53,227 nucleotides of DNA from assembly GCA_016782755.1 (NCBI GenBank), contig JADHXY010000001.1, positions 1 to 53,227 of the forward strand, written 5' to 3'. The notes beneath the pieces were generated by a model that saw nothing but the letters and a program-made list of their open reading frames with translations, was not told the origin of the DNA and did not search any database. The translations under genes were made by a program, and so were the position numbers. Source of the stretch: Phycisphaerae bacterium (GTDB lineage Bacteria > Planctomycetota > Phycisphaerae > Sedimentisphaerales > Anaerobacaceae). Positions 20,634 through 38,562 of this stretch are shown here, in pieces; position 1 is the stretch's first letter; every line of letters begins with the position of its first letter.

Positions 20634-21995
20634 TTAATTGCTTGGTTGGGTGCCGAATACATTGGCATTCCAGGTTTCGACAGATTCTTTGACTTCGGCA
20701 GCTTTTAACTGCCCGGTACGGACGGGCAGCCATAGTGAAACTTTTGGCAAATACGTTATTAACATCAGTGCCAGGATCATTGCGGCAAAAAACGGGAGCA
20801 TGGTCTTTGTTACTTTTGCTATGGTCGTTTTTCCTACACCACATCCGATGAACAAGCATGTTCCTACCGGAGGAGTACACAGCCCTATGCAAAGATTTGC
20901 GATCATTATAATTCCGAAGTGTACCTCATGTATACCCAGCGAATGAACAACGGGCAGAAAAATCGGTGTAAAGATAAGAATCGCAGGCGTCATATCCATA
21001 AAAGTTCCAACAAAAAGCAACAGGATGTTTATCGTTAGCAGGATTATGATCGGATTGTCCGAGATATTTAAAAGCGAGCTGCTTACAGCCTGAGGAATAT
21101 TGGCCATCGTCATAATCCAACTCATTCCGGAACTGGCACCTATAAGCAGCATTACTACGGCTGTTGTGATACCGGTCTGCTTGAATATCTCCGGTAACTG
21201 CCGCAAACTGATCTGCCGGTAAACGAGCACAGAAAGTATAAATGAATACAGTACCGCAATAGCCGCCGCCTCCGTCGGGGTAAAAATGCCTTTTAAGATT
21301 CCTCCGATGATAATAATTACCATCATCAGGCTTAAAATCGCTCTTTTGAATGAAATTAGTGTCTGAAAAAATGAGACTCGCTGCTCGGAACCGTACTTAT
21401 TGCGAAACGCGAAGTATCCGCAAACAACCATAATAGACAAACCCATGATTATACCGGGAAAGACCCCAGCCATAAACATCGCGGCAATTGAGACGCTTCC
21501 AGCGGCGACAGAGTAAACGATCATAACATTGCTCGGCGGAATTAGCAGTCCCGTCGTTGCAGCGGTAGTCGTAACAGCTACGTTAAACTCCCGGCTGTAA
21601 CCTTTGCGGTTCATCTCCGGGATCATAAACCCACCGACCGATGAGACCGCAGCCGCAGCTGAACCTGAAATTGATCCAAATAACATACAAGTGAGTGTGT
21701 TTACATATGCAAGTCCGCCGGGGAGCATCCCGACAAGCGAATTGGCAAAATCGATAAGGCGTTTAGCCATGCCTCCACGGCCCATCAGGTGACCCGAGAG
21801 TATAAAAAACGGGATTGCGAGCAAAGCAAAACTATTAACTCCGTTGGCCATTTTCATCGCCATCATCACCGAAGGATCTATACCCTCAGCAAGTATTGCA
21901 ACGAATGCCGCCATTGCTATGGAAACAGCGACAGGAACATTCATCACAAGCAGCAAAACGAAAACAAGCACCAGTAAAAGAGTTGTCGCACCCAT
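20634..21995 (-). CDS. dctM: TRAP transporter large membrane subunit (DctM)
   Basis: DctM is the main membrane-embedded subunit of the Na+-dependent, binding-protein-assisted TRAP systems for organic and sugar acids. The 453-residue protein starts MGATTLLLVLVFVLLLVMNVPVAVSIAMAA and has about a dozen hydrophobic segments with the usual motifs: LLAIPFFILSGHLMGRGGMAKRL, GLLIPPSNVMIVY, IFTPTEAAAIAVLYSF, PVGTCLFIGCGV. Its ATG overlaps the dctQ stop codon by one base. Being the last gene of the uronate cluster, it probably imports uronic acids or short uronate products. Confidence 0.95.
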   Translation of the reverse strand: MGATTLLLVLVFVLLLVMNVPVAVSIAMAAFVAILAEGIDPSVMMAMKMANGVNSFALLAIPFFILSGHLMGRGGMAKRLIDFANSLVGMLPGGLAYVNTLTCMLFGSISGSAAAAVSSVGGFMIPEMNRKGYSREFNVAVTTTAATTGLLIPPSNVMIVYSVAAGSVSIAAMFMAGVFPGIIMGLSIMVVCGYFAFRNKYGSEQRVSFFQTLISFKRAILSLMMVIIIIGGILKGIFTPTEAAAIAVLYSFILSVLVYRQISLRQLPEIFKQTGITTAVVMLLIGASSGMSWIMTMANIPQAVSSSLLNISDNPIIILLTINILLLFVGTFMDMTPAILIFTPIFLPVVHSLGIHEVHFGIIMIANLCIGLCTPPVGTCLFIGCGVGKTTIAKVTKTMLPFFAAMILALMLITYLPKVSLWLPVRTGQLKAAEVKESVETWNANVFGTQPSN

Positions 21996-22501
21996 TATTT
22001 TATTCCTTCCTGTTTCTTAGAGAACGCAAGCTCAAGTATTCGTTCAACCGTAAATATTATCATGAATGTTCCTGCTATTGGCAGGGCCAGATAGACATAG
22101 CCCTGCTGAATTCCCAATGCTGGTGTAACCTGTTCCATCTGAAGAGTGTCGATGACGACTCGGCTGCCTCCCACTATGAAAATAGTTACGGCAAAAAACA
22201 GAACGACAAGCTGAGCAAAAACCGCCAGCATCTTTCTGGACGACGAGTCAAAAAGATCTACGAAGTAATCTACTCCGATGTGAGCCTTTTCACCAAATGC
22301 GACAGCTCCTCCCAAAAGAGAAATCCAAATAAGAAGAAACCTGGCAAGCTCTTCGGTCCAGTCGGCTTGTGCGTCCATAGCATAGCGAGTAAAGACGCCC
22401 CACAAGACATCAATGACCAGTACGAACACCGCAACAATCAGTACCGCCTCCAAGAGGTAACAGAGTGTGATACGACTTTTTTTAAGTATATCAAGTATCA
22501 T
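21995..22501 (-). CDS. dctQ: TRAP transporter small membrane subunit (DctQ)
   Basis: The 168-residue protein has four hydrophobic helices and the family motifs VLWGVFTRYAMDAQADWTEELARFLLIWISLLGGAVAFGEKAHIGVDYFV. DctQ packs against DctM and is needed for transport. Its ATG overlaps the stop codon of dctP (ATGA), so the three subunits are translationally coupled. Confidence 0.92.
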   Translation of the reverse strand: MILDILKKSRITLCYLLEAVLIVAVFVLVIDVLWGVFTRYAMDAQADWTEELARFLLIWISLLGGAVAFGEKAHIGVDYFVDLFDSSSRKMLAVFAQLVVLFFAVTIFIVGGSRVVIDTLQMEQVTPALGIQQGYVYLALPIAGTFMIIFTVERILELAFSKKQEGIK

Positions 22502-23508
22502 GGCTTGACCTTTCTTATTCTGTTTACCAATTCCCTAATTTTTTCATTGTCGATTGCCTCGTACATTGGCTTTACCTTTTCCGCAAAGAGACTCTGATCT
22601 ACTTCATAGATAGTGACCCCTTCTGCTTTTGCCTGCTTGAGTGATTCTATCGTTTTTTCTTTCCAGAGCTTACGCTGGAAGACAGAGGACTCGTCTGCTG
22701 CCTGCTGAATCCATTGCTGTACCTGTGGGTCAAGCCCCTTCCAGATTTTCGTGCTGATCAGAAGAACGTCTGGGATCCTTGTGTGGGCATCCTTTGAAAA
22801 ATGCCTGCATATCTCGTAGTGCTTGTTCGTAGTAAAACTCGGCGGATTATTTTCGGCACCGTCGACTGTACCCTGAGCAAGAGCTGTATAAAGCTCTCCC
22901 CAGGCTATCGGAGTTGGTGCCGCACCAAGAGCACTTACCATATTCATGGCGGTGCGGCTGTTCATAACACGAATCTTTAGACCCTTTAGATCATCCGGCG
23001 TACGTATCGGGCGGTCTTTGGTATAAAAATTTCGGCTGCCGGAATCATAATAGCAAAGACCTCTAAGATTTTTTACCTGGGTCTTTTCGAGGAGTTCTTT
23101 GCCCACCTGGCTGGTAAGAACATTCCAATAATGAGTCTCATCTCGAAAAAGGTAGGGCAGCCCGAAAACCGATATTTCCGGCAAAAAATTTTCGATTGCA
23201 GCAGCTGAAGTTTTTGTCATCGCCAGCAAGCCATACTGGAGCTGCTCTATGCACTGTACCTCCGAGCCCAAAACGCTGCTGGAATAGATGTCTATCTTAA
23301 CTGTTCCATCGGAAAGTTCTGCCAGTCGCTCGTTCATAAACTCCATAGCTTTGTGAACTGGGTGAGAGGGGTCCAGACTATGCCCAAGCTTGAGTACGAT
23401 CTGTTTGCCGTGATTCGCCGTTCCACGAAAGAACAACGCATATCCACAGGTTGCTATCAAGATTCCGATAAGCGTAATGCTTATCAGAAACGAAACTTCC
23501 TTTTTCAT
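22498..23508 (-). CDS. dctP: TRAP transporter solute-binding protein (DctP family)
   Basis: The 336-residue periplasmic receptor has a hydrophobic N-terminal segment (signal or anchor, residues about 5-25) and then LKLGHSLDPSHPVHKAMEFMNERLAELSDG, LKGLKIRVMNSRTAMNMVSALGAAPTPIAWGELYTALAQGTVDGAENNPPSF. The Arg in KIRVM is the conserved carboxylate-binding residue of the family, and GAENN is frequent among sugar-acid receptors. The ATG at 23508 is preferred because GGAG lies six bases upstream. Location beside uxaC, uxaE and a fructuronate reductase makes glucuronate or galacturonate the likely ligand. Confidence 0.93.
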   Translation of the reverse strand: MKKEVSFLISITLIGILIATCGYALFFRGTANHGKQIVLKLGHSLDPSHPVHKAMEFMNERLAELSDGTVKIDIYSSSVLGSEVQCIEQLQYGLLAMTKTSAAAIENFLPEISVFGLPYLFRDETHYWNVLTSQVGKELLEKTQVKNLRGLCYYDSGSRNFYTKDRPIRTPDDLKGLKIRVMNSRTAMNMVSALGAAPTPIAWGELYTALAQGTVDGAENNPPSFTTNKHYEICRHFSKDAHTRIPDVLLISTKIWKGLDPQVQQWIQQAADESSVFQRKLWKEKTIESLKQAKAEGVTIYEVDQSLFAEKVKPMYEAIDNEKIRELVNRIRKVKP

Positions 23509-23595
23509 GCTCAACTCCATCATCCATTTATAGACATCGTAAAATAGTATCTCTGATTATTATAATATTTATCCTCTACCATCCGATCGAGCAGT

Positions 23596-27603: not shown

Positions 27604-28635
27604 CTATAAGGTTTTTGCGGCTTCAATAAACGCATTTATATTGTCGGTTTTCACGTTCTGTGGCATGCCTCCACCGGCTGACAAAAGAACGCCGTTTGTA
27701 TTATCCAGCCCTTCCACAGATTTGAGTACCGCTTCTTTAACGTCTTCGGGCATCCCCTCTTTCAGGATATCGCGAGGCGGAATATTACCCATTAAAGCCA
27801 CTTTGCCACCGGTCAACTCCTTCATTTGCCCAATTCCGTGTTCAAAACTATAATTGAAGAGGTTGACACCCATTTCAGGCAGATACGGGGCACTGACAAG
27901 CCCAGCCGCATCATTGTGCAGGAAATTGACTTTTGCATTAAAGGCTCCGTAGATTTTCTTGAAATACGGAACAACGTATTCTCTGCATTGATCGTCTCCG
28001 ACAAAGCCAATAATGTCATCCAAGAGCAAAATCCCTTCAATCGCCGGAAATTGTTCCATCTGGTAACCAATCCAATCAACCAGAAAATCCGTAAGCAGAG
28101 CAATTAGCTTGTGACATTTTTCCTGTTCGGTCATCATCGACATCATCAGCTCGGTCGTGCCTAATAAAAAAGACGCAATATTCAGGGGACCCCTGGCAAC
28201 GGCAAATTTAATCTGATGCCCCATCGCTTCAATTTGCGGTTGCGTGTTTCGCAGGCGGTTAATCACAAACGGCAACAAACCATCTTTTTTCACATTCGGC
28301 TTATCTATCTGACATAGAATATTTATATCAGAAGAAATTGCTTCGGCATGTGGCAAATTCGCTTCTTCCCACCGGCACTTTGCGCCAAAAGCACTGGGTT
28401 CGGTACACATGCCGTATTCGGACCAGAAACCTGGGAGGAATATTGTGTCTGGGAATGTTTCTATCGCCTTTTTATTGGCTTCAAACCAAAGTTGGTCGCT
28501 GGTGTAATAGTCCAGTGTATTGATGCCTGACCATCCGGGCAACCAAGGGCTGTCGATGATAAAGCCAGTTGGCATTGACGAAATCGTTTTCCCTTCGATA
28601 ACGCTTATCAACAATTGCCATTGTAAATCGTTCAC
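27604..28635 (-). CDS. Uroporphyrinogen decarboxylase (URO-D) family protein
   Basis: This 343-residue protein belongs to the URO-D/MtaA-like superfamily rather than to true HemE: it lacks an HemE-type N-terminus (PxWxMRQAGR) and has GFWSEYGMCTEPSAFGAKCRWEEANLP, DDIIGFVGDDQCREYVVPYFKKIY, NFLHNDAAGLVSAPYLPEMGVNLFNYSFEHGI, and GNIPPRDIL. Members often transfer methyl groups to or from corrinoids, but many in planctomycete sugar loci have no assigned function. Translation begins at GTG with AAAGGTG upstream. In this cluster it could remove methyl groups from methylated sugars such as 4-O-methylglucuronate; that is speculation. Confidence 0.8.
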   Translation of the reverse strand: MNDLQWQLLISVIEGKTISSMPTGFIIDSPWLPGWSGINTLDYYTSDQLWFEANKKAIETFPDTIFLPGFWSEYGMCTEPSAFGAKCRWEEANLPHAEAISSDINILCQIDKPNVKKDGLLPFVINRLRNTQPQIEAMGHQIKFAVARGPLNIASFLLGTTELMMSMMTEQEKCHKLIALLTDFLVDWIGYQMEQFPAIEGILLLDDIIGFVGDDQCREYVVPYFKKIYGAFNAKVNFLHNDAAGLVSAPYLPEMGVNLFNYSFEHGIGQMKELTGGKVALMGNIPPRDILKEGMPEDVKEAVLKSVEGLDNTNGVLLSAGGGMPQNVKTDNINAFIEAAKTL

Positions 28636-28662: not shown

Positions 28663-30072
28663 TTAGCAAGTCATATCGAAGTAATTCCGGGCATTATTGA
28701 AGCTGATATCTTCAACCATTTGTCCCAGCAGCTTCATATCCTTTGGCCAGAGGCCTTTTTCGACCTCTTCTCCGAGCAGGTTACACAAAATCCGGCGGAA
28801 GTATTCGTGACGCGAATAGGAGAGGAAACTGCGGGAGTCGGTTAGCATGCCGATAAACCGACTAAGCAAGCCAAGATTCGACAGTGCATTCATCTGCTTA
28901 ATCATACCGTCCATCTGATCGAGGAACCACCAGCCGGGACCAAACTGCATCTTTCCGGGTACATTACCCTGAAAATTACCCACCATAGCAGCAAGCACCT
29001 CGTTGTCCTTCGGGTTGATATTATATAGTATCGTCTTTGCTAACATGCCCTGGTTGTCGAGCCTGTCCAGGTATCGTGCCAGCGGCAAAGCAATTTCGAA
29101 GTCACCTATCGAGTCAAAGCCAGTGTCAGTACCGAGTTTTTCGAACATGCGAGAATTGTTGTTTCTGATAACACCCACGTGCAGTTGCTGAACCCAGCCC
29201 TTTTTATAATTCATCTTGCCGAATTCAATCATCATTGCGGACTTGAATTTTTCGACCTCTTCCGGCGAAAGCTTGGTCTTAGTGCGTATTTTTTGGAATA
29301 TAGCTTCAATCTGGCCGGCTGTATATTCAGAAGCATAAAGTCTATCAAGCCCGTGATCGCTTAACCGACAGCCGTTTTTGTGGAAGTAGTCCTGCCGCTT
29401 TTCGATTGCCTCAATATATATGTCAAATCTGTTAATATCCATGTCCGTTAGCTCAGCAAGTTTGTCGATCCATTCATTCTGAGTATCAAGATTCTCCGGA
29501 GCCATCGCCTTATCGGGTCGCCATGCTGTATGTACCGCTATTTCAAAATCATCATTTGCAATGGTCCTATGGTATTCGAGATTGTCCAGCGGATCCTCTG
29601 TGGTACAGATAAGCTTGACGTTCCATTTGCGCATAATATTACGCACACTGAACTGTTTGGTATTCAACATTTCACCGCACGAATCGTATATTTGATCGGC
29701 AGTGTCCGGGTTTAGCAGCTTGTCAGTAATACCAAATGGCTTTTTTAGCTCAAGGTGGGTCCAGTGATACAGCGGGTTACGAATACAGGCAGGGACAGTG
29801 TGTGCCCATTTTTCAAATTTCTGACGATCTGTTGCATCTCCGGTGCAGTACTTCTCTTCAACACCGTTGGTTCGCATCGCTCGCCACTTGTAATGGTCGC
29901 CGCAAAGCCATATCTGCGTTAAATTCTCGAACTGTTTATCGGCTGCGATTTGAGCAGGCTTCAAATGACAGTGGTAATCATATATCGGCATCTTCGCTGC
30001 ATGATCATGGTAGAGCACTTTCGCTGTTTCATTTTGCAACAGAAAATCTTCATTCATATACTCAACTGTCAT
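28663..30072 (-). CDS. uxaC: Glucuronate/galacturonate isomerase
   Basis: UxaC converts D-glucuronate to D-fructuronate and D-galacturonate to D-tagaturonate, the first cytoplasmic step of uronate use. The 469-residue protein is full length, with the amidohydrolase-type HxH motif YDYHCHLKP (His34, His36), RAMRTNGV, ICTTEDPLDNLEYH, and conserved LHVGVIRNNN and LTDSRSFLSYSRHEYFRRILCNLLG blocks. It has a GGAG site six bases upstream of the start and is 45 bp downstream of gnd. Together with UxaE and the SDR it would give all steps from galacturonate or glucuronate to mannonate. Confidence 0.96.
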   Translation of the reverse strand: MTVEYMNEDFLLQNETAKVLYHDHAAKMPIYDYHCHLKPAQIAADKQFENLTQIWLCGDHYKWRAMRTNGVEEKYCTGDATDRQKFEKWAHTVPACIRNPLYHWTHLELKKPFGITDKLLNPDTADQIYDSCGEMLNTKQFSVRNIMRKWNVKLICTTEDPLDNLEYHRTIANDDFEIAVHTAWRPDKAMAPENLDTQNEWIDKLAELTDMDINRFDIYIEAIEKRQDYFHKNGCRLSDHGLDRLYASEYTAGQIEAIFQKIRTKTKLSPEEVEKFKSAMMIEFGKMNYKKGWVQQLHVGVIRNNNSRMFEKLGTDTGFDSIGDFEIALPLARYLDRLDNQGMLAKTILYNINPKDNEVLAAMVGNFQGNVPGKMQFGPGWWFLDQMDGMIKQMNALSNLGLLSRFIGMLTDSRSFLSYSRHEYFRRILCNLLGEEVEKGLWPKDMKLLGQMVEDISFNNARNYFDMTC

Positions 30073-30117
30073 TGCTAACTCCGTTACCTGAACACAAATT
30101 TTAAATTACCCTTAATG

Positions 30118-31566
30118 TTACACTATATAAGTTGAAGCCGCCGTATCGCCGCCGTGTCCGGTCCAGTTGGTGTGGAAAAATTCGCCCTTGGGTTTGTCAA
30201 CTCGTTCGTATGTATGTGCCCCAAAATAATCCCGCTGGGCCTGCAGCAGATTCGCCGGCAAGCGTTCGGTTCGGTATCCATCATAATAGGCTAAAGCTGC
30301 AGTTGTGGCAGGCATCGCGACACCGATCTTTATGGCAGTTGTGACAACGCGGCGCCAACTGGCCTGTGCTTTCACAACGGCATCCTTGAAGAAGGGATCG
30401 AGCAGCAGATTGACCAGCCCCGGTTTTTTGTCGAATGCCTCCTTTATCTTACCAAGGAAAATTGAGCGAATGATACATCCACCTCGCCACATAAGAGCAA
30501 TACCGCCATTATTCAGCTTCCAGTTGTATTCTTTTGCCGCTGCTCGCATAAGCTGATAACCCTGGGCATAACTAACGATCTTTGAAGCGTAAAGTGCCTG
30601 ACGCAAATCATCAATCATTGCATCTTTGTCACCGTCAAATTTTCCGTCAGGACCTGTAAGAACTTTTGATGCCTCAACACGCTCATCTTTAAGAGCCGAT
30701 AAACATCTTGCAAAAACCGCTTCACCGATAAGGGTTAACGGCTGACCAAGATCAAGGGCCGAAATAGCCGTCCATTTGCCTGTTCCCTTTTGGCCTGCGG
30801 TATCGAGAATCATATCCAGTACCTCGGTTCCATCTTTGTCTTTGTAGCCCAAAATGTCACGGGTAATTTCAATAAGATACGAATCAAGCTCACCTTCGTT
30901 CCATCTGCCAAAAACCTCACACATTTGCTGGTTTGACAAACCCAGGGCCTTCATCATCTGGTAAGTCTCGCATATCATCTGCATGTCACCGTATTCGATA
31001 CCGTTATGAACCATTTTCACAAAGTGACCTGCACCATTTTCGCCAACCCATTCGCAGCAAGGCTGGCCATCCTCGGTGTGTGCAGCTATCTTCTGGAATA
31101 TAGGTTTGACGTAAGCCCAAGCATCCGGCGAACCACCGGGCATGATCGAAGGTCCTAAAAGAGCACCCTCTTCGCCACCGGAAACACCAGTGCCGATGTA
31201 AAGCTTTCCCTGTTCTTCAACATATTTTGTACGCCTGATGGTATCGGGAAAATGGCTGTTTCCGCCATCTATAATAATGTCACCATCATCGAGATGCGGC
31301 AGTATCTGGTCAATAAAAGCATCCACAGGTGCACCGGCCTTTACCATAAGCATTACCTTATGAGGCGACTTGAGATTAGCAACCAGTTCTTCAACCGACT
31401 TGCAGCCGATGATATTCTTGTCCTTGGCTATGCCTTGTAAAAAATCATCTACTTTCGAAACTGTCCTGTTATAGCAAGCCACAGTGAAGCCTTTGCTCTC
31501 CATGTTAAGTATGAGGTTCTTTCCCATTACAGCTAAACCTATTACTGCTATATCTGCTTTTTTCAT
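30118..31566 (-). CDS. gnd: 6-phosphogluconate dehydrogenase (decarboxylating)
   Basis: Gnd oxidatively decarboxylates 6-phosphogluconate to ribulose 5-phosphate. The 482-residue protein matches the long dimeric NADP+ form: AVIGLAVMGKNLILNMESKGF at the N-terminus, CYNRT, IIDGGNSHFPDT, GTGVSGGEEGALLGPSIMPGG, KMVHNGIEYGDMQ with the catalytic Lys and Asn, and DTAGQKGTGKWT. The start at 31566 is supported by AAGGAG nine bases upstream; an upstream extension lacks any conservation. It directly follows the larA-like gene (28 bp), an odd location for a pentose phosphate gene and a clue to the route used here. Confidence 0.96.
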   Translation of the reverse strand: MKKADIAVIGLAVMGKNLILNMESKGFTVACYNRTVSKVDDFLQGIAKDKNIIGCKSVEELVANLKSPHKVMLMVKAGAPVDAFIDQILPHLDDGDIIIDGGNSHFPDTIRRTKYVEEQGKLYIGTGVSGGEEGALLGPSIMPGGSPDAWAYVKPIFQKIAAHTEDGQPCCEWVGENGAGHFVKMVHNGIEYGDMQMICETYQMMKALGLSNQQMCEVFGRWNEGELDSYLIEITRDILGYKDKDGTEVLDMILDTAGQKGTGKWTAISALDLGQPLTLIGEAVFARCLSALKDERVEASKVLTGPDGKFDGDKDAMIDDLRQALYASKIVSYAQGYQLMRAAAKEYNWKLNNGGIALMWRGGCIIRSIFLGKIKEAFDKKPGLVNLLLDPFFKDAVVKAQASWRRVVTTAIKIGVAMPATTAALAYYDGYRTERLPANLLQAQRDYFGAHTYERVDKPKGEFFHTNWTGHGGDTAASTYIV

Positions 31567-31594
31567 TTCAGATTGCTCCTTAACTTTTAATATT

Positions 31595-32860
31595 CTATTT
31601 GAATCTTTCTTTGTATGACCACAATCCCATTCCAGGATTTGAGATAAAGAATATTTTTTCACCGTTGACTGTATTGAAGCCCTTCTTTAGTTTTTTGGGG
31701 TCATATACTTTTATCATTTCTGTTAAGTCTGCGTATTCAAAATTTACTGACTCAATTTCTTCTTTGCTCAATTTCCCAGGACAGTACGTAATTTTAAAAC
31801 GGCCTTCCGATGAACCGTGAATAAAATGGGCGGCAGCACTGAGATTTTTCTTCAAATCGTCATTGTCTTTTACAAGTTCCAGCACCTTCTCAGTTCCAAC
31901 GTAGCCGTATTTTCTTATAAGCCGATCTATTTCAGGGTCTTCGCCAAATTTTGAGAGTCCGGGTGCTAAAATTATCAGCTCACCGCCATCTGCCATCGCC
32001 ATCCTTGTTCTGTAAATGCTTTTATTGCCCAGCCAGGTACTCTTAAATTCTTCAGGCTCAAGATAAACCACAGCCTTATCGAGCGGCTTGTCAAGCATTT
32101 GGAAATTAACTTTTAACGACAATTCTGATGCAAGATTGAAGCATTCAATATCATCACCAATAAACAGTCCTCGAGTTACCTGCCCGGACTCAGTTGCCTC
32201 TATAACCGTCTGGACATATACTATCGGCAGGTTTTTAGCAAAATTGTCCGAGGCGTAATTCAACACCCGCCTTACCGGCGTATCTGCTCTGCCCATTATC
32301 TTCTCCATCCCGTAAGCCGCACCAAGAAAATGACTTTTATTTATCCCCTCAGAGCCGCCAGTACCAACAAAAATGTTTTTATTATAATTGGCCATCCCCA
32401 CAACTTCGTGCGGCACAATCTGCCCGATAGACAAGATAAGATCGTAATCCCCCTCAACCAACAGACTATTAACCTGCGCTGGCCAATCATAATTAATTTT
32501 TCCGGCGCTCACTTCTTTAACAAATTCAGCGGGTACCGTTCCAAGAGTTACAAGACCATCCCGCCAATCGTGTTCTCTGAAAAGTTCCTGTGGTACAGAG
32601 CCGAACATCCTTTTTATCTCGTCAGCAGTCATCGGAAAATGAGTTCCCAGAGCCGGCAGTATATCGGTCACAGCTTCATTGTGATACTTCCATGCCATTT
32701 GAGTAAGTTCACCGGCACGAGAATAAAAACGGGTAATATCAGGCGGAATTATCAGAACTTTCTTTTTACTACCAAGATTTCCAAAGACAGAATACAAACC
32801 TTCTCGCAAATCATGCGAGGTTAAATTTTCATTTTCGCCGCCTCGTTTATAATAAAGCAT
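31595..32860 (-). CDS. LarA-family (lactate racemase-like) nickel-pincer epimerase
   Basis: LarA enzymes use a nickel-pincer nucleotide to move hydride at a 2-hydroxy acid. The 421-residue protein has the DITR motif (DxxR), the GTHFPMT histidine, and PHEVVGMANYNKNIFVG followed by INKSHFLG. The His, Lys and His of this last block are spaced 10 and 26 residues apart, as I recall for His174, Lys184 and His200 of the Lactobacillus enzyme, so the active site looks intact. The C-terminal domain (ELIILAPGLSKFGEDPEIDRLIRKYGYVG) is that of sugar-acid-type homologues. An in-frame TTG at 32872 would overlap the HAD gene. No larB, larC or larE for cofactor synthesis is in the window. Its setting between uronate genes and gnd suggests a hexonate, perhaps mannonate/gluconate, as substrate. 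Confidence 0.88.
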   Translation of the reverse strand: MLYYKRGGENENLTSHDLREGLYSVFGNLGSKKKVLIIPPDITRFYSRAGELTQMAWKYHNEAVTDILPALGTHFPMTADEIKRMFGSVPQELFREHDWRDGLVTLGTVPAEFVKEVSAGKINYDWPAQVNSLLVEGDYDLILSIGQIVPHEVVGMANYNKNIFVGTGGSEGINKSHFLGAAYGMEKIMGRADTPVRRVLNYASDNFAKNLPIVYVQTVIEATESGQVTRGLFIGDDIECFNLASELSLKVNFQMLDKPLDKAVVYLEPEEFKSTWLGNKSIYRTRMAMADGGELIILAPGLSKFGEDPEIDRLIRKYGYVGTEKVLELVKDNDDLKKNLSAAAHFIHGSSEGRFKITYCPGKLSKEEIESVNFEYADLTEMIKVYDPKKLKKGFNTVNGEKIFFISNPGMGLWSYKERFK

Positions 32861-32865
32861 ATTAT

Positions 32866-33762
32866 TTACCAATCAGGGTTTTCCGGCAGGTATTCTTCGA
32901 ACTCGGCAATTATTTTATTTTCATAGTCGCCAGCGTATTCTCCTGCCATAAATTTATCAAAAACCTCTTCGTAAAATTTTTTCCAGCTGTTATCTTCATT
33001 GCCGGGGTTAATAGCATAGAAAAGCACACCATTTTTCTTTGCCGCATCATAGTCACCGGGAGCATCACCTATCATAAGGATTTTATCCTTATCATATTTT
33101 TCGCACATGATCGCCAGGTGCTCTGCCTTTTTGCCCATTTCCTGTCCGGCTATAACCTTAACATATTTGGCAACATCATGCTCGGCCCATTCTCTTTCAA
33201 GTGCAGCTACCGGTGTCGATGAGCAGACAACAATATCTGCCTTGTGAGCAATCTTTTCCAGGCTCTGGCGAACATAATTGAAAGGCGGTACATTTTTGAC
33301 AATCTCTGCTACCATCTCATTTACACGTTTGCTCCACCTTAGAACATGCTGCAGTTGGTGCTTTTCTTTGTTATTTTCTGCTTTGACAATCGCCTGCTCA
33401 AGCCCCTGATCACTCAGCAAACTATCCGGATCGTTAACCCATCGACAATAATACTTAAATTCCGGGACCTTAAAACCGCGTTTTTTTGTCTCTGGATGTG
33501 AAGGCAACAATTCAGTCAGTATTCTAACAACCGTCTTATGACGATTGGCACCGCGAGTCTTGCTAAACAAATCTGCAAATTCCTTACACTCTCTCGCAGC
33601 TTCAGCTACGGGCTGAAGACCGAAATAGGCTATCATCATCGGGCAGAAACATTCCCTCTGTTTGATCCCCATCGCATCAAAAACACAACCATCCGAATCA
33701 ATCGCAACCAGACAATCATTAGTTGGCTGCATATTTTTCAATGCCTTTGCGTAATTAGACAT
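32866..33762 (-). CDS. HAD-superfamily phosphatase
   Basis: The 298-residue protein has all HAD motifs: DSDGCVFD (nucleophile Asp22, acid Asp24), CSSTP (motif II Ser/Thr), the Lys in GKKAEHL, and IGDAPGDYDAA (motif III acidic pair). An alpha-helical cap of about 130 residues lies between motif I and motif II, longer than in simple C1 phosphatases. The substrate is unknown; in this operon it could hydrolyse or transfer phosphate of a sugar or sugar acid. It lies 32 bp after the SDR gene and just upstream of, or overlapping, the larA-like gene. Confidence 0.85.
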   Translation of the reverse strand: MSNYAKALKNMQPTNDCLVAIDSDGCVFDAMGIKQRECFCPMMIAYFGLQPVAEAARECKEFADLFSKTRGANRHKTVVRILTELLPSHPETKKRGFKVPEFKYYCRWVNDPDSLLSDQGLEQAIVKAENNKEKHQLQHVLRWSKRVNEMVAEIVKNVPPFNYVRQSLEKIAHKADIVVCSSTPVAALEREWAEHDVAKYVKVIAGQEMGKKAEHLAIMCEKYDKDKILMIGDAPGDYDAAKKNGVLFYAINPGNEDNSWKKFYEEVFDKFMAGEYAGDYENKIIAEFEEYLPENPDW

Positions 33763-33794
33763 ATATCATACCCCTGATAACCAATAGTAAATTC

Positions 33795-34613
33795 TCAAAC
33801 TCCGCCGAAAGCACTATAGCCGCCGTCAACCGGCACGACAATACCTGTTACGAATCTTGCCGCATCGCTTATCAGCCAGATTAATGTGCCGCTAAGTTCT
33901 TCTGCCTGACCAAATCTGTTCATTGGTGTATGGTTAACTATACTCTGACCGCGAGGAGTAAACTCGCCGGTCTTTTCGTCTGTAACAAGGAATCGGTTCT
34001 GCTCCGTAATAAAGAAACCCGGTGCAATCGCATTAACGCGAATAGTCTTTGAATAATTCTGACACATATGAACTGCCAACCATTGCGTAAAGTTGCTGAC
34101 AGCTGCTTTTGCCGCCGAATATGCAGGAATTTTTGTTAGGGGCTTGAAGGCATTCATACTTGATACATTCAAAACCACTCCCTCGCCCTTTTCGGCCATA
34201 AGTTTTGCAAAAATTTGAGTCGGCAAAAGCGTCCCAAGGAAATTTAAATCAAATACAAAACGAATTGCATCAGCAGGCATATCAAAGAAAGATAAATCAG
34301 GCCCAGTCGTGGCCATTTTATTGTTCCCGCCTGCGCCGTTGATCAAAACATCAACTCCGCCAAAAGACTTTAAGACCTCCTTCGATGCGGCCTCTATGGA
34401 TTCCTTTTCCAGCACATCACACTTTACAGCTATGGCCTCACTACCACCGGCTATGATTTCTTCAGTAACTATTTTCGCCGCATTTTCATTGATATCCAAC
34501 ACAGCGATCCTGGCACCGGCCCGACCTAATGATTTTGCCATACAGCCACATAATACTCCTCCTGCCCCTGTTATTACTACAACCTTATCTTTGACGCTAA
34601 ATTCATTACTCAT
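33795..34613 (-). CDS. Short-chain dehydrogenase, probable D-mannonate oxidoreductase (fructuronate reductase)
   Basis: The 272-residue SDR has the cofactor-binding TGAGGVLCG motif (15-23), NGAGG, Asn124, the catalytic Tyr165 and Lys169 in YSAAKAA and the VDGGYSAFGG end. The sequence GVLCGCMAKSLGRAGA and the insert near residue 100-115 are those I associate with SDR-type D-mannonate oxidoreductases that reduce D-fructuronate to D-mannonate. KduD-like specificity is the alternative. The AAGGG site six bases before the ATG supports the start. It is 11 bp after uxaE, whose product it would use. Confidence 0.85.
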   Translation of the reverse strand: MSNEFSVKDKVVVITGAGGVLCGCMAKSLGRAGARIAVLDINENAAKIVTEEIIAGGSEAIAVKCDVLEKESIEAASKEVLKSFGGVDVLINGAGGNNKMATTGPDLSFFDMPADAIRFVFDLNFLGTLLPTQIFAKLMAEKGEGVVLNVSSMNAFKPLTKIPAYSAAKAAVSNFTQWLAVHMCQNYSKTIRVNAIAPGFFITEQNRFLVTDEKTGEFTPRGQSIVNHTPMNRFGQAEELSGTLIWLISDAARFVTGIVVPVDGGYSAFGGV

Positions 34614-34624
34614 TATCTACCCTT

Positions 34625-35872
34625 TTATTCAATAAATAAAGGCTTTATATGCCTTTGGAAAATATTTTCTGTTACACATTCTCCAATCACATTTTCATAC
34701 TTTGCAAGAGCATCCAGATACATCTGGCCCATTTCAGCAGCTACCTTATATCCAACATGCAAAAGCTGTCTTACATTACTATCGTAATCGCTGCACGTTT
34801 GATCGTGCCGCAAAACATTAGCAAATTTCTGACTGTCCCAATCAGCTACAATCTCAGGCGACGGCAATTTGCCCCAATCAATATCTATCACTGTCGAGTA
34901 AGGCACACAGAGTTCATCAAATCTGTCATAAGCCCTGGTATAAATTTCTTTGGCGATATCAAGACCTTCGCCGCCGGCTGTAGCCAGGCCGACAACCTCT
35001 TCCAGCCACGTTGTCCCTGCTGTTTTTATGTGCAGCCCAGCATCGAATTTCTTAAGTGCCTTATTCATAGTACCGTAAATCGAAAATTTATCACTACCGG
35101 AATGGACACTTAGCTTAAGATTTTTCGGCAAAGAAAATTCCTTTATTGCAAATGCGATTACTGCCAGATCATCATTGAATTCTTTCTCAAATTGAGCAAC
35201 ATCACCAACGTAATCTACTCCCTTGTTAAACCTGCCGGTAAATTTGGGAGCTATCGTCTGAGCTGCTATACCCTGATCCGCTATCGCTGCAAGGATGAAA
35301 AACATCTCAACAGGACTTTGCGGCAGGGCAGTTTCGTCCATGGAAACCTCAGCTACGAAATTACACTTGCCTTTAGCTGATTCTATCCTGCGATAAATTT
35401 TCCCCGCCTCAATTACTGCCAATAAAACTTTGGATGCAATTTTCCTGATAAGATTTTCGTTTATCTCAACCGGCTTATCAATACCGTCAATATTAAGTCG
35501 GCCTGTGTACCTTTTATACTTTTGAACAAAGTCCTCGATCCATAAATCATCAGCTTTTTTGCTTATGTAATCAGCCACATCAAGCGTAAAAAAGTCACTT
35601 GACCCAACAAACGAATCAACATTGCTTAAATTAATATGGTCTGCATCAACAAAATAGTCCCCTTGCCAGCCCAATTTCTCAACGGCCTTGTTTGCCTCTT
35701 TCCTGACAGAATCTGGAGATGTTTTAGTAATTGTATGCTCACGATGAGATTTATTCCAAACAGGCGTAATATCTATTCCTGCTTGTTTGGCCCTGATCAT
35801 CGCTTGAAGCTGAGCCTTACCCTGATAGGCAAACCTGTCCCCAATGCCAAATGAATACTTACCAATCTCCAT
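34625..35872 (-). CDS. uxaE: D-tagaturonate epimerase (UxaE family)
   Basis: UxaE interconverts D-tagaturonate and D-fructuronate, which lets a single reductase serve both galacturonate and glucuronate, as described for Thermotoga. The 415-residue protein has the family features YSFGIGDRFAYQGKAQLQAM at the N-terminus, DADHINLSNVDSF, LSVHSGSDKFSIY, KTAGTTWLEEVVGLA and VLRHDQTCSDYDSNVRQLLHVGYKVAAE near the end. It is full length, with a clear start after AAGGATC, and is 9 bp downstream of the phosphofructokinase gene. Confidence 0.9.
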   Translation of the reverse strand: MEIGKYSFGIGDRFAYQGKAQLQAMIRAKQAGIDITPVWNKSHREHTITKTSPDSVRKEANKAVEKLGWQGDYFVDADHINLSNVDSFVGSSDFFTLDVADYISKKADDLWIEDFVQKYKRYTGRLNIDGIDKPVEINENLIRKIASKVLLAVIEAGKIYRRIESAKGKCNFVAEVSMDETALPQSPVEMFFILAAIADQGIAAQTIAPKFTGRFNKGVDYVGDVAQFEKEFNDDLAVIAFAIKEFSLPKNLKLSVHSGSDKFSIYGTMNKALKKFDAGLHIKTAGTTWLEEVVGLATAGGEGLDIAKEIYTRAYDRFDELCVPYSTVIDIDWGKLPSPEIVADWDSQKFANVLRHDQTCSDYDSNVRQLLHVGYKVAAEMGQMYLDALAKYENVIGECVTENIFQRHIKPLFIE

Positions 35873-35881
35873 ATGTGATCC

Positions 35882-37147
35882 TTAAAGATAATTTGCACAT
35901 TTCTTTTCGAGCGGTTTTCTTTCAAATCTCATGTACACCGGCAATCCATCTTCACCGATAGTAACTTCGGCTTCACCTCTTATCAACGGCGTTGCATATT
36001 CTTTGAACGCATCGGTAATCCCGTTACCTGCCTGATTGATATAATAGTCGGGAACTTTCTTTTCCCCATTGGCTACATCGCTAAGTACAGCCAATCCGGT
36101 TGTGCATTTATATGGACTGTTCGACTGGCGCACCAATGTAACCATTTTGCCGTTTACACCATCAAGAGCATGTTTAACTGCCATTTTACCACACAGGTAA
36201 GCCTCATTGACATCGGTCAGCGATGCAAAATGCATAGCACTTCGCTGATTCGTTCCCAGTTTGTTACAGCGGGCCTTTACACCAACTTCTTTTCCTACAA
36301 TATCTTTGAGTACTTCTGATATACCTCCAAGCTGAACGTGACCGAAACTATCCCTGTCAAATACTCCCGCGTCTGCAGTAATTACTTCGCCTTTGTCGTC
36401 AACAAGCCCTTCACCGCAAACAACAACTATTCTGCCGAATTCCTTTAGAGCATCTTTACAATCATTTACAAACTGCTCTTTGGAGAAAGCTCTTTCGGGC
36501 AGGTATATCAAGTTCGGTGAATCTTCGGGTTCTCTTCTTGCGAGACCAGCAGCCGCAGCAATCCAGCCGGCATTTCTGCCCATAACCTCTAATATCGTAC
36601 AAGTATCGGTAGTGTAAAGAGCCTCGGTGTCCTTGCCTGCATTCATCGCTGATACGGCGACATACTTTGCAACACTTCCGTAACCTGGGCAGTGATCTGT
36701 GAAAGCAAGGTCGTTATCGATTGTCTTAGGCACACCAATACAAACCAGTTCATATCCGGTATCTTTGGCCAGTTTGTTAACCTTATCTGCTGTATCCATC
36801 GAATCGTTTCCGCCGATATAAAAAAAGTAATGGATATCGTGTGCTCTAAAAACATCAAGTATTCTTTCATAATCAGCTTTGGACTCATCCATAGATTTTA
36901 GTTTATATCTGCATGAACCGATAGCTGCCGCCGGCGTTCTCTTAAGAGCCTCAATATCTTTAGGCCTTTCTGAAGTGATATCAAACAAATTTTCTTCAAG
37001 TACACCTAAAATACCGTTAGTAGCGCCAAAAACCTTATCGATCTTTGAAGACTTAATAGCCTGCTGTATCACCCCGCAAGCACTTGAATTTATGACTGTT
37101 GTAGGGCCACCGGACTGGGCAATTATGGCATTAGATTTAGAAACCAT
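35882..37147 (-). CDS. pfp: 6-phosphofructokinase family, predicted pyrophosphate-dependent
   Basis: The 421-residue protein is of the longer PFK type. GGNDSMDT (about 112-119) has Asp115 where ATP enzymes carry Gly104 (E. coli numbering), and PKTIDND (140-146) has Lys141 where ATP enzymes carry Gly124; this Asp/Lys pair marks PPi use. The substrate-binding MGRNAGWIAAA segment is intact. Being the first gene of the uronate operon, it may tune flux between fructose 6-phosphate and the bisphosphate or act on another sugar phosphate. Its start follows AGGAAC and faces the ROK gene across a 206-bp regulatory region. Confidence 0.9.
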   Translation of the reverse strand: MVSKSNAIIAQSGGPTTVINSSACGVIQQAIKSSKIDKVFGATNGILGVLEENLFDITSERPKDIEALKRTPAAAIGSCRYKLKSMDESKADYERILDVFRAHDIHYFFYIGGNDSMDTADKVNKLAKDTGYELVCIGVPKTIDNDLAFTDHCPGYGSVAKYVAVSAMNAGKDTEALYTTDTCTILEVMGRNAGWIAAAAGLARREPEDSPNLIYLPERAFSKEQFVNDCKDALKEFGRIVVVCGEGLVDDKGEVITADAGVFDRDSFGHVQLGGISEVLKDIVGKEVGVKARCNKLGTNQRSAMHFASLTDVNEAYLCGKMAVKHALDGVNGKMVTLVRQSNSPYKCTTGLAVLSDVANGEKKVPDYYINQAGNGITDAFKEYATPLIRGEAEVTIGEDGLPVYMRFERKPLEKKCANYL

Positions 37148-37183: not shown

Positions 37184-37201
37184 AACTCACAACGTGAGCT
37201 T
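37184..37201. promoter_or_regulatory. Candidate ROK operator 1
   Basis: AACTCACAACGTGAGCTT contains CTCAC-aac-GTGAG. It resembles the site at 37300-37316: 10 of the first 14 positions are the same (AAyTCAyAwyGTGA). It lies about 37-54 bp upstream of the pfp start codon, where a repressor could block the catabolic operon. Confidence 0.45.
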
Positions 37202-37256
37202 AACTTATCATATCTAACTCAAAATTACAAGTTTTTTAATAAAATAACTTTTTAGT

Positions 37257-37276
37257 TGAAAATGAGGACATTTTCA
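37257..37276. promoter_or_regulatory. Palindrome in the divergent region
   Basis: TGAAAATGAGGACATTTTCA is a perfect inverted repeat with 8-bp arms and a 4-base centre. It is unlike the two GTGA-type sites, so it may bind a different regulator or be a second site type. Its position between the two promoters suits control of both. Confidence 0.45.
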
Positions 37277-37292
37277 TATCTTCAGAAAAGGG

Positions 37293-37321
37293 TTGAATAA
37301 ATTCATATTGTGAATTATAAT
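37293..37321 (+). promoter_or_regulatory. Sigma-70-type promoter of the ROK regulator gene, with embedded operator
   Basis: TTGAAT (37293-37298) and TATAAT (37316-37321) are separated by exactly 17 bases, 32 bp before the GTG start. The spacer is filled by the palindrome AATTCATATTGTGAATT (37300-37316), which would let the regulator repress its own gene. Confidence 0.65.
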
Positions 37322-37353: not shown

Positions 37354-38562
37354 GTGAACAAAAGCCCAATAGATTCTAAAACTGCCGGACAGAGAAACGA
37401 AAAACTTGTCTTGAATTTACTAAAACAGCACAAACAACTTTCACAAGCTCAACTTTGCAAATTGGCAGGTCTGGGTAGTTCCACTGCAAGTTATATTGTT
37501 GGCCGACTTCGGAATAAGGGTTTTATACTTGAAACACCCGGTCAAAGCAAAAATCGAGGCGCCAAGCCTGTCATCTTAAGCTTAAACCCGCATGGTCGAT
37601 TCATCATTGGAATCGAGATAAACCCCAATAATATTTTAATTGGCCTTTTTGATTTCAACTGCAGACTTGTTGAAGATATAAAGATTTTTCTCGGTACTGA
37701 CAATGTCCCCGAAAAAATAGTTGAGTTGCTGGAAATAAACTTACTTGGCTTGATCGGCAAGCATAAAATTGACCAGCAAAAATTGCTTGGTATAGGTGTA
37801 ACTTTGAGTGGTTCGGTTTCGCCCGATGGATTGGTAGAACTTTCAAGCCCGCTGGGTTGGAAAAATGTTCCCTTAAAAACCATGTTATCATCTCAATTTA
37901 ATTGCATGATTGAAGTACACCCTACTCGTGTTCGCCTTTTAGCTGAATTTAATATCACGCCTGAATTATCAACCAAGAATATACTTTACCTCAATGTCGC
38001 CAACGGTGTAGGGGCAACTGTTTTTATGGAAGGCAGATTAATTGCCGGCTCCACAGGTCGCTGTGGTGAACTGGGGCACATTATAGTTGACCCTAATGGA
38101 CCTCTCTGCGGATGCGGACACAAAGGCTGCCTGGAAGCATTTATATCAGGCCCTGCCTTAACAAAAAAAATAAAAACAGAGATTTCCGAAGGCCGACAAA
38201 CTATTTTAGCGAATTTGATTAAAGACGAAGATAACCCGGAAGTTGTTATTAATAAATGGGGTAACGCCCTTAAAAAAAATGATGCGTTCGCTCTTGAAAT
38301 ACGTAATTACGTTGGAAACTTTTTAAGCAAGATCGCTTCAGCTGCTATTAACTGCTATGATCCTGATACGCTTGTAGTAGCTGGCTATGTCACTATCCCA
38401 TGTTTTGAGTATCTTGCCAATGCAATAAAAACCAGATTCGAAAGTGACTTATACGACGATTCTTCCAGATCAATAGAAATTATTCCAGCCTGTGCCGGAA
38501 AAAATGCATTGATTACCGGAGTAGCTGCTTCTGTTCTGGAAAACTCTATTAAAAACCGCTGA
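37354..38562 (+). CDS. ROK-family transcriptional repressor
   Basis: The 402-residue protein has an N-terminal winged helix-turn-helix (about residues 12-65, with LSQAQLCKLAGLGSSTASYIVGRLRNKGFI) and a ROK sugar-sensing domain. The zinc motif GELGHIIVDPNGPLCGCGHKGCLE (237-261) is complete. The kinase features are lost: the DxGGT phosphate motif is replaced by EINPNN, and the catalytic NDAN segment reads HPTR, so it should bind but not phosphorylate its inducer. It starts at GTG with AAGGA seven bases before. Divergent orientation and palindromes upstream suggest that it represses the uronate operon until a sugar or sugar acid is bound. Confidence 0.92.
   Translation: MNKSPIDSKTAGQRNEKLVLNLLKQHKQLSQAQLCKLAGLGSSTASYIVGRLRNKGFILETPGQSKNRGAKPVILSLNPHGRFIIGIEINPNNILIGLFDFNCRLVEDIKIFLGTDNVPEKIVELLEINLLGLIGKHKIDQQKLLGIGVTLSGSVSPDGLVELSSPLGWKNVPLKTMLSSQFNCMIEVHPTRVRLLAEFNITPELSTKNILYLNVANGVGATVFMEGRLIAGSTGRCGELGHIIVDPNGPLCGCGHKGCLEAFISGPALTKKIKTEISEGRQTILANLIKDEDNPEVVINKWGNALKKNDAFALEIRNYVGNFLSKIASAAINCYDPDTLVVAGYVTIPCFEYLANAIKTRFESDLYDDSSRSIEIIPACAGKNALITGVAASVLENSIKNR

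Follow-up and report, generated by a model that had tools for sequence, protein, structure and literature searches.

Paired palindromes beside a ROK-family regulator gene as its probable operators at a sugar-acid operon in a planctomycete order

What controls the divergent genes for a ROK-family regulator and a sugar-acid operon in a Phycisphaerae bacterium, and are the two palindromes that lie between them the regulator's operators? The locus is found on a 53,227-nucleotide contig (JADHXY010000001.1 of GCA_016782755.1), which we analysed as a whole and call the window; it is contig C100 of a 1.86-Mb assembly that is 84.6% complete. The first gene of the operon here, pfp, starts at 37147 on the minus strand, the ROK gene starts with GTG at 37354 on the plus strand, and a gap of 206 bp separates them. 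The original prediction, made from this sequence alone, proposed that the ROK protein represses both its own gene and the catabolic operon. We conclude, with a probability of about 0.82, that the two palindromes are operators of the ROK protein (37354–38562) through which it would repress its own gene and the operon. What the computation establishes is that the sites exist, where they are placed, that they are conserved and that they occur or are missing together with the ROK gene.

Both palindromes are found where they were proposed. The operon-side operator, O1, spans 37184–37200 (AACTCACAACGTGAGCT), contains a perfect CTCA-N5-TGAG core at 37186–37198 and is separated from the pfp start codon by 36 bp on its upstream side, placing it near the pfp start as predicted. 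The ROK-side operator, O2, spans 37300–37316 (AATTCATATTGTGAATT) and has the variant core TTCA-N5-TGAA, a 6/8 match; like O1, it is a palindrome and is assigned to no strand. The placement of O2 between the ROK promoter's hexamers was also correct, as it occupies the whole 17-bp spacer between the plus-strand −35 (TTGAAT, 37293–37298) and −10 (TATAAT, 37316–37321), overlapping the latter by one base. This TTGAAT-N17-TATAAT promoter (37293–37321) has 10 of 12 consensus bases, and the relatives carry TTGAAA, TTGAAT or TTGATT hexamers at the −35; the promoter scan by itself is weak evidence (2 promoter-like sites in 301 bp versus 1.3 expected from shuffles). O1 lies immediately 3′ of a putative leftward −10 on the minus strand (TAAGTT, 37202–37207), spanning the expected start site. 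That weak hexamer was inferred by alignment with relatives, which have TATAAT or TAAAAT there, and a putative −35 (TTGTAA, 37225–37230, minus strand) lies 17 bp from it.

A scan of the assembly for the earlier 14-mer pattern, AAYTCAYAWYGTGA, returned two exact matches, both at this locus, and none for the reversed control; this uniqueness is partly circular, because the pattern was derived from these same two sites. In the 53-kb window alone, the looser YTCA-N5-TGAR occurs no more often than shuffling would predict (3 matches versus 4.9), and the evidence comes from relatives. We searched for the ROK protein in 60 related genomes, all of them kin of the window genome, and in one genome per GTDB species, a scan that is sensitive to close relatives only. 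The six best loci of the latter scan (L033–L038, 50–57% identity) belong to genomes of the same order, and the next best fall below 31% identity, except for one short match of 35% and one of 32%. After removing duplicates (L004 and L006 are the same contigs as L033 and L035), we aligned 20 loci on the ROK start, the window's own included. Incomplete assemblies are common in this set, and gaps in them may explain some of the absences.

Conservation in relatives had been set beforehand as the deciding test, and we found 16 perfect cores within 300 bp upstream of the 20 ROK genes, compared to a mean of 0.028 and a maximum of 1 in 500 dinucleotide shuffles. Cores matching at 7/8 or better numbered 25 (shuffle mean 1.3, maximum 5); leaving out the window's own locus, 15 perfect cores and 24 of at least 7/8 remained. 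At least one core of 7/8 or better was present at 15/20 loci and at least two at 10/20, the loci without one being L009, L010, L016, L017 and L036. When weaker variants were accepted by eye, sites were found on both sides at 16/20 loci, whichever gene heads the operon, while L016 and L036 have only the ROK-side site, L011 has only the operon-side site and L017 has neither. The probability that these are chance palindromes in AT-rich promoter DNA is negligible: the count of the loose form in the window is what chance would give, but the conservation upstream of the 20 ROK genes and at 12 held-out loci far exceeds the shuffles.

The conserved unit is the 13-bp dyad CTCA-N5-TGAG, which extends to 17 bp with its A/T flanks. 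A matrix of 36 sites, three of which were added by eye at 5/8 (two at L009 and the operon-side site at L010), reads A-N-C-T-C-A-N5-T-G-A-G-N-T, with A at 0.70 in position 1 and T at 0.70 in position 17. Across the 34 sites of the relatives, G13 is invariant and T4, C5, T12 and A14 are each present at 90% or more. The proposed consensus AAyTCAyAwyGTGA matches both window sites but is wrong in its centre, as the relatives do not conserve the bases yAwyG.

The held-out loci came from a search of 161 genomes of the order, again kin only, in which 34 genomes matched at E <= 1e-80, the window genome included. This search provided 16 further loci, of which 12 were kept and four dropped as duplicates (L197, L200, L206 and L209); five listed matches yielded no new locus (G038, G148, G037, G008:C8 and G143). 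The 12 loci contain 7 perfect cores, compared to 0.016 in shuffles, and 18 of at least 7/8, compared to 0.84, with at least one of the latter at 10/12 loci and at least two at 8/12. Ten of the 12 come from one family, f7, some of them from genera in the first set, and they are not independent lineages. The cores of L207 lie at −270 and −15 and are not clearly promoter-placed, while L204 and L211 have no core of 7/8.

We then employed the matrix to rank positions across whole stretches of sequence. Trained without this genome, it ranks O1 first in the 53-kb window at 18.6 bits and O2 third at 13.8 bits. When each locus's own sites were left out of training, the best match in its stretch (7.9–19.5 kb) was a promoter site at 16/19 loci, scoring 10.4–18.3 bits, and the exceptions were L123, L124 and L036. 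The training also omitted the sites of the locus's group, except in family f1 (L111, L112 and L120), where only the locus's own sites were omitted. At 13 loci of genomes that lack the ROK gene, the top matches scored 7.2–14.0 bits and none was located within 400 bp upstream of the first recognized operon gene.

The sites are also placed consistently. At 22/32 loci, the ROK-side promoter region has a dyad of 6/8 or better between TTG[AT]nn and a hexamer with at least four TATAAT matches (14/20 in the first set and 8/12 in the held-out set), whereas 200 shuffles gave a mean of 0.5 loci and at most 4; by eye, the ROK-side dyad of L018 and L034 is just past the −10 instead. On the operon side, inspection by eye places the dyad a few bases past the leftward −10, where it would cover the start site. 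With O1 at the start site and O2 in the spacer, both positions suit a repressor.

We next compared operons with and without the regulator. An orthologue of the operon's LarA-family protein (E <= 1e-127) is present in 28 genomes of the first set, 16 with a ROK orthologue and 12 without. A core of at least 7/8 lies within 400 bp of the first recognized operon gene in 12/16 genomes with ROK and in 0/12 without (Fisher P = 6.6e-5). For this count, tRNA-Thr genes were masked at five ROK-lacking loci, which would register as hits if unmasked. For G052 and G037, we scored the gene cluster next to ROK; LarA is encoded on other contigs in these two genomes (L171 and L170, respectively), where no 7/8 core was found upstream of the cluster. 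A second LarA locus of G031 (L172) was left out of the count, and no core of at least 7/8 is listed for it.

The masked tRNA-Thr (CGT) genes belong to five genomes of family f2, and their D-arm imitates the core at 7/8 less than 300 bp from the first recognized gene. They are located at L160:8250–8321, L165:2300–2371, L166:6526–6597, L167:6522–6593 and L168:6283–6354, about 200–260 bp before LarA or, at L160, before a short pfp match.

Comparing neighborhoods at 19 loci by tblastn with the window's proteins, we found ROK and genes of this operon in divergent orientation at 15/19. The recognized gene nearest to ROK is the short-chain dehydrogenase (SDR) at 9 loci, pfp at 3 and UxaE at 3 (one with only 29% identity). 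Since the nearest gene varies, the conserved partnership is between ROK and the operon as a whole, and not with pfp. A pairing of ROK specifically with pfp does not hold: pfp heads the operon here, but by genome the nearest recognized gene is pfp, UxaE or SDR. In G041, the first operon gene is not adjacent to ROK, starting 10.8 kb from the ROK start, and the operon keeps a site at 7/8: its start carries ATCACACACCATGAGAT, followed by the usual −10. Conversely, two ROK genes have a site with no operon gene in the stretch examined, L038 at 7/8 and L036 at only 6/8. Upstream of ROK in L038 (4230–4400), we observed a short pfp-like start that reads MSGKVNAIVAQSG and then breaks off; a weaker operon-side dyad lies close by at 4380, an arrangement that looks like the remains of a lost operon.

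To see how far the motif extends, we counted WWCTCAN5TGAGWW across genomes. Fifteen genomes with ROK hold 29 places, 9 at this locus and 20 outside it (reversed control, 13), and 12 genomes without ROK hold 24 (reversed control, 37); across these genomes, there was no enrichment outside the locus. Ten of the 20 outside places were inspected, and 8 overlap an open reading frame (ORF) of at least 80 amino acids, one only at its end, with the caveat that such ORFs can be spurious. The two not in an ORF are in L183 (G040) and L185 (G044); the latter, at L185:1501–1517, is an intergenic AACTCACAGCCTGAGAA about 160 bp before a 387-residue ORF. In the window genome, the only further place for the 17-mer at one mismatch or fewer is C59:8899, which we rejected as chance because it sits at the convergent 3′ ends of hisF-like and ksgA-like genes (names from reading the translations). 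Because the motif is not enriched elsewhere, the ROK protein looks like a local regulator of the operon, of itself and, in G043 and G047, of uptake; in these two genomes, the genes that immediately follow ROK, in the same orientation, are relatives of the window's TRAP transporter.

Several mechanisms could account for these sites. They could be operators of a different transcription factor, encoded elsewhere, that controls both ROK and the operon. Such a regulator could have vanished together with ROK, and the binding of ROK itself is a prediction. However, the presence of the site tracks ROK (12/16 versus 0/12 operons), the sites persist at the ROK promoters of L038 and L036 that have no operon gene in the stretch examined, and the missing enrichment elsewhere fits a local regulator encoded at the site. 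We consider this alternative unlikely, while granting it some weight.

Alternatively, the ROK protein could activate the operon, or activate the operon and repress itself. Activator sites normally lie upstream of the −35, whereas O1 covers the expected start site and O2 fills the −35/−10 spacer, both of which are positions for repression. ROK regulators can be of either kind, as described in part of one account of the family (PMC9599254), so activation keeps a small share of the probability, a shade below that of the separate factor.

In a third mechanism, O1 would work as an RNA hairpin that terminates or attenuates transcription in the pfp leader, with O2 a coincidence of AT-rich promoter DNA. 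On the minus strand, O1 does resemble a terminator, a stem followed by a T-rich tail (1 such element versus 0.1 expected). Nevertheless, the same dyad occurs ahead of the start site expected for ROK and would not be transcribed there; the conserved part consists of fixed DNA letters (the invariant G13 and the four positions at 90% or more), which goes beyond a paired stem; and genomes with the same operon and no ROK lack the hairpin dyad. Because its second copy would not be transcribed, we do not take a hairpin to be O1's main function and regard this mechanism as very improbable.

Autorepression combined with repression of the operon by ROK thus draws its support from conservation, co-occurrence, the sites of G041, L036 and L038, and the matrix applied to a held-out genome, in agreement with the central claim of the original prediction. 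Several observations weigh against it. The leftward −10, TAAGTT, is weak, and a scan for consensus promoters gives no such site. O2 is outscored by position 38395, inside the ROK ORF, which ranks second at 14.1 bits, and its own 13.8 bits are equalled by chance places at ROK-lacking loci (up to 14.0 bits); promoter position thus counts for no less than sequence in the case for O2. When the relatives' 34 sites were built into a covariance model of the 17-mer from sequence only, without structure, it gave no whole-genome match, its best match in the window having E = 0.36 with filters off, and the model is too short for genome-wide significance.

The co-occurrence itself has exceptions. Four of the 16 operons with ROK fall below 7/8 (G052, G057, G029 and G038): G052 and G057 carry variants of 5–6/8, in G029, a perfect core is found 175 bp before ROK but more than 400 bp from the first recognized operon gene; and G038, whose ROK is diverged (44% identity), has a good site at neither gene. 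Because the genes are so close together, most of the scored regions with ROK also take in the ROK-side site, and in several of them it is the best core. In addition, the 12 genomes without ROK are not independent, being mostly interrelated (5/12 in family f2) and incomplete.

We infer that ROK is the binding protein, that repression is the effect and that a sugar acid is the inducer. When no inducer is present, the winged helix-turn-helix (HTH) of ROK dimers would hold them on the 17-bp dyad ANCTCA-N5-TGAGNT. On O2, the bound dimer would keep RNA polymerase off the ROK promoter, creating autorepression. On O1, it would block the start or escape of transcription for pfp-uxaE-SDR-HAD-larA-gnd-uxaC and probably for genes beyond. 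ROK would be released by one of the pathway's sugar acids, whether uronate, fructuronate, mannonate or gluconate, possibly in phosphorylated form.

The protein's domains are compatible with this role. The ROK-family transcriptional regulator (37354–38562, plus strand, 402 residues) combines an N-terminal winged HTH (PF12802, PF13412 and PF13463 above their cut-offs, residues 14–75) with a C-terminal ROK domain (PF00480, E 1.8e-43, residues 85–394) that has a degenerate kinase motif. ROK kinases have no N-terminal winged HTH. GntR is absent from the five Pfam families that match the protein at E <= 0.001. In the presumed recognition helix, S43, T44, I48, R51, L52 and R53 are invariant in 20/20 orthologue rows, as are G69 and P72 in the presumed wing. 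The protein contains CGCGHKGCLE, which we take to be the zinc motif CxCGxxGCxE of ROK regulators; the motif is found in 19/20 rows, and the remaining row is masked there.

The kinase functions appear to have been lost. Placing the DxGGT ATP motif and the catalytic Asp according to what we presume are the corresponding Mlc and kinase motifs, we found by eye that the ATP motif is absent from 20/20 rows, which read E/D-I/L-[NSD] without GGT from residue 88, and that the presumed catalytic column (190) has no Asp in the 19 readable rows. R194, four residues before the invariant E198, is Arg in 19/19 readable rows, with R or K two residues before it in 18/19; we assume that this region is where kinases have their catalytic Asp. 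These kinase-dead features would suit a non-enzymatic sensor, perhaps of sugar acids. The best NCBIfam match, TransRegNagC, is far under its cut-off (142.7 versus 650 bits), as is Mlc (111.6 versus 530 bits). By sequence, the closest solved relative is Lmo0178 (PDB 5f7p, 5f7q and 5f7r; E 1.2e-38, residues 15–344), and the protein also resembles the solved regulator Mlc.

A third palindrome between the two genes, TGAAAATG-AGGA-CATTTTCA at 37257–37276 (no strand), had been suggested as the site of another regulator. It has no other exact match in the genome, its best match in the 19 other orthologue regions reaches only 12/16, and a perfect 8-bp dyad with a loop of 3–8 arises in 82 of 1000 shuffles of the region. 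It is not conserved, and we found no support for it as the site of a second regulator or for any other function; it is most simply explained by chance.

The operon reads leftward on the minus strand from pfp, diphosphate-fructose-6-phosphate 1-phosphotransferase (35882–37147), through UxaE of the tagaturonate epimerase family (34625–35872), an SDR of the D-mannonate oxidoreductase subfamily PRK08277 (33795–34613), a HAD-family hydrolase (32866–33762), a LarA-family nickel-dependent putative hexonate epimerase (31595–32872), the decarboxylating 6-phosphogluconate dehydrogenase Gnd (30118–31662) and the glucuronate isomerase UxaC (28663–30072). A URO-D family protein (27604–28635) follows directly downstream of UxaC in this sugar-acid operon. 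Farther along on the minus strand, a TRAP transporter (20634–23523) is the probable uptake system, with DctM and DctP recognized by Pfam and the gene between them taken as DctQ.

The LarA-family protein is probably a mannonate/gluconate 2-epimerase, a reading that comes from its NCBIfam score (NF052594, 666.5 bits versus a cut-off of 500) and its operon with UxaE, mannonate oxidoreductase and Gnd; the part of PMC11770544 that concerns the family includes known D-gluconate/D-mannonate 2-epimerases. The pathway needs a gluconate kinase, though none was seen among the window operon proteins scanned (28663–37147). FGGY-family matches occur elsewhere in the same genome, on C22 and C113. In three relatives examined between LarA and Gnd, a PfkB-type kinase is present in L113 and L114, but not in L111, which has there a 935-residue protein that we read as glycoside hydrolase-like. 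At L165, L167 and L168 (G042, G046 and G058, which lack the ROK regulator), a ROK kinase-like gene with 25–27% identity to the window's ROK protein lies near LarA and could be the gluconate kinase there.

The switch proposed here is of a sound but ordinary kind. It supplies a sharply defined, testable 17-bp operator, usually two per locus, together with a predicted regulator for the hexuronate-mannonate-gluconate pathway, including its putative nickel-dependent hexonate epimerase, of a planctomycete order that we encountered mostly as metagenome assemblies. With a known effector, the two sites together could also be put to use as a small inducible promoter. As far as our literature searches show, the protein group, its candidate operator and the proposed control of this pathway by a ROK regulator are new, and no prior description of the regulator or motif was found among the matches listed in open-licence PMC papers.

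ROK repressors with palindromic operators on sugar operons are well known, as parts of two accounts describe (PMC9599254; PMC4856308). The present system shares with the Mlc/NagC/XylR-type repressors a winged HTH joined to a ROK domain and a linked sugar operon, and it has predicted palindromic operators at promoters, as they do. Its predicted operator differs from theirs. The sites of RokA, CysR, Mlc, NagC, RafR and Thermotogae regulators, as PMC4856308 describes them, are T-rich at the 5′ end and A-rich at the 3′ end, while here a compact CTCA-N5-TGAG is preceded by A and followed by T. Lmo0178, the closest solved relative, is a different protein, and the likeness is one of protein sequence.

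In terms of pathway, the nearest counterpart is the UxaR regulon of Thermotoga maritima, which has a matching gene set: the section of PMC3750489 on this regulon places gnd, uxaE, uxaD, gntE and gntK under the GntR-family regulator UxaR, with an operator motif of 17 nt. For UxaR binding, the same section reports no effect of the tested uronates or pathway intermediates. It is possible, though we would hold it at somewhat less than even odds, that the ROK proteins of this order are a repressor clade of their own. Such a clade would use a remodelled, kinase-dead sugar pocket to sense a sugar acid, would recognize the compact CTCA-N5-TGAG dyad, which is unlike the operators of other ROK proteins, and would have taken the place of Thermotoga's GntR protein for the same mannonate-to-gluconate pathway. 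In either case, the same pathway logic is seen under unrelated regulators, the predicted ROK repressor in the planctomycete order and the GntR-family UxaR in Thermotoga.
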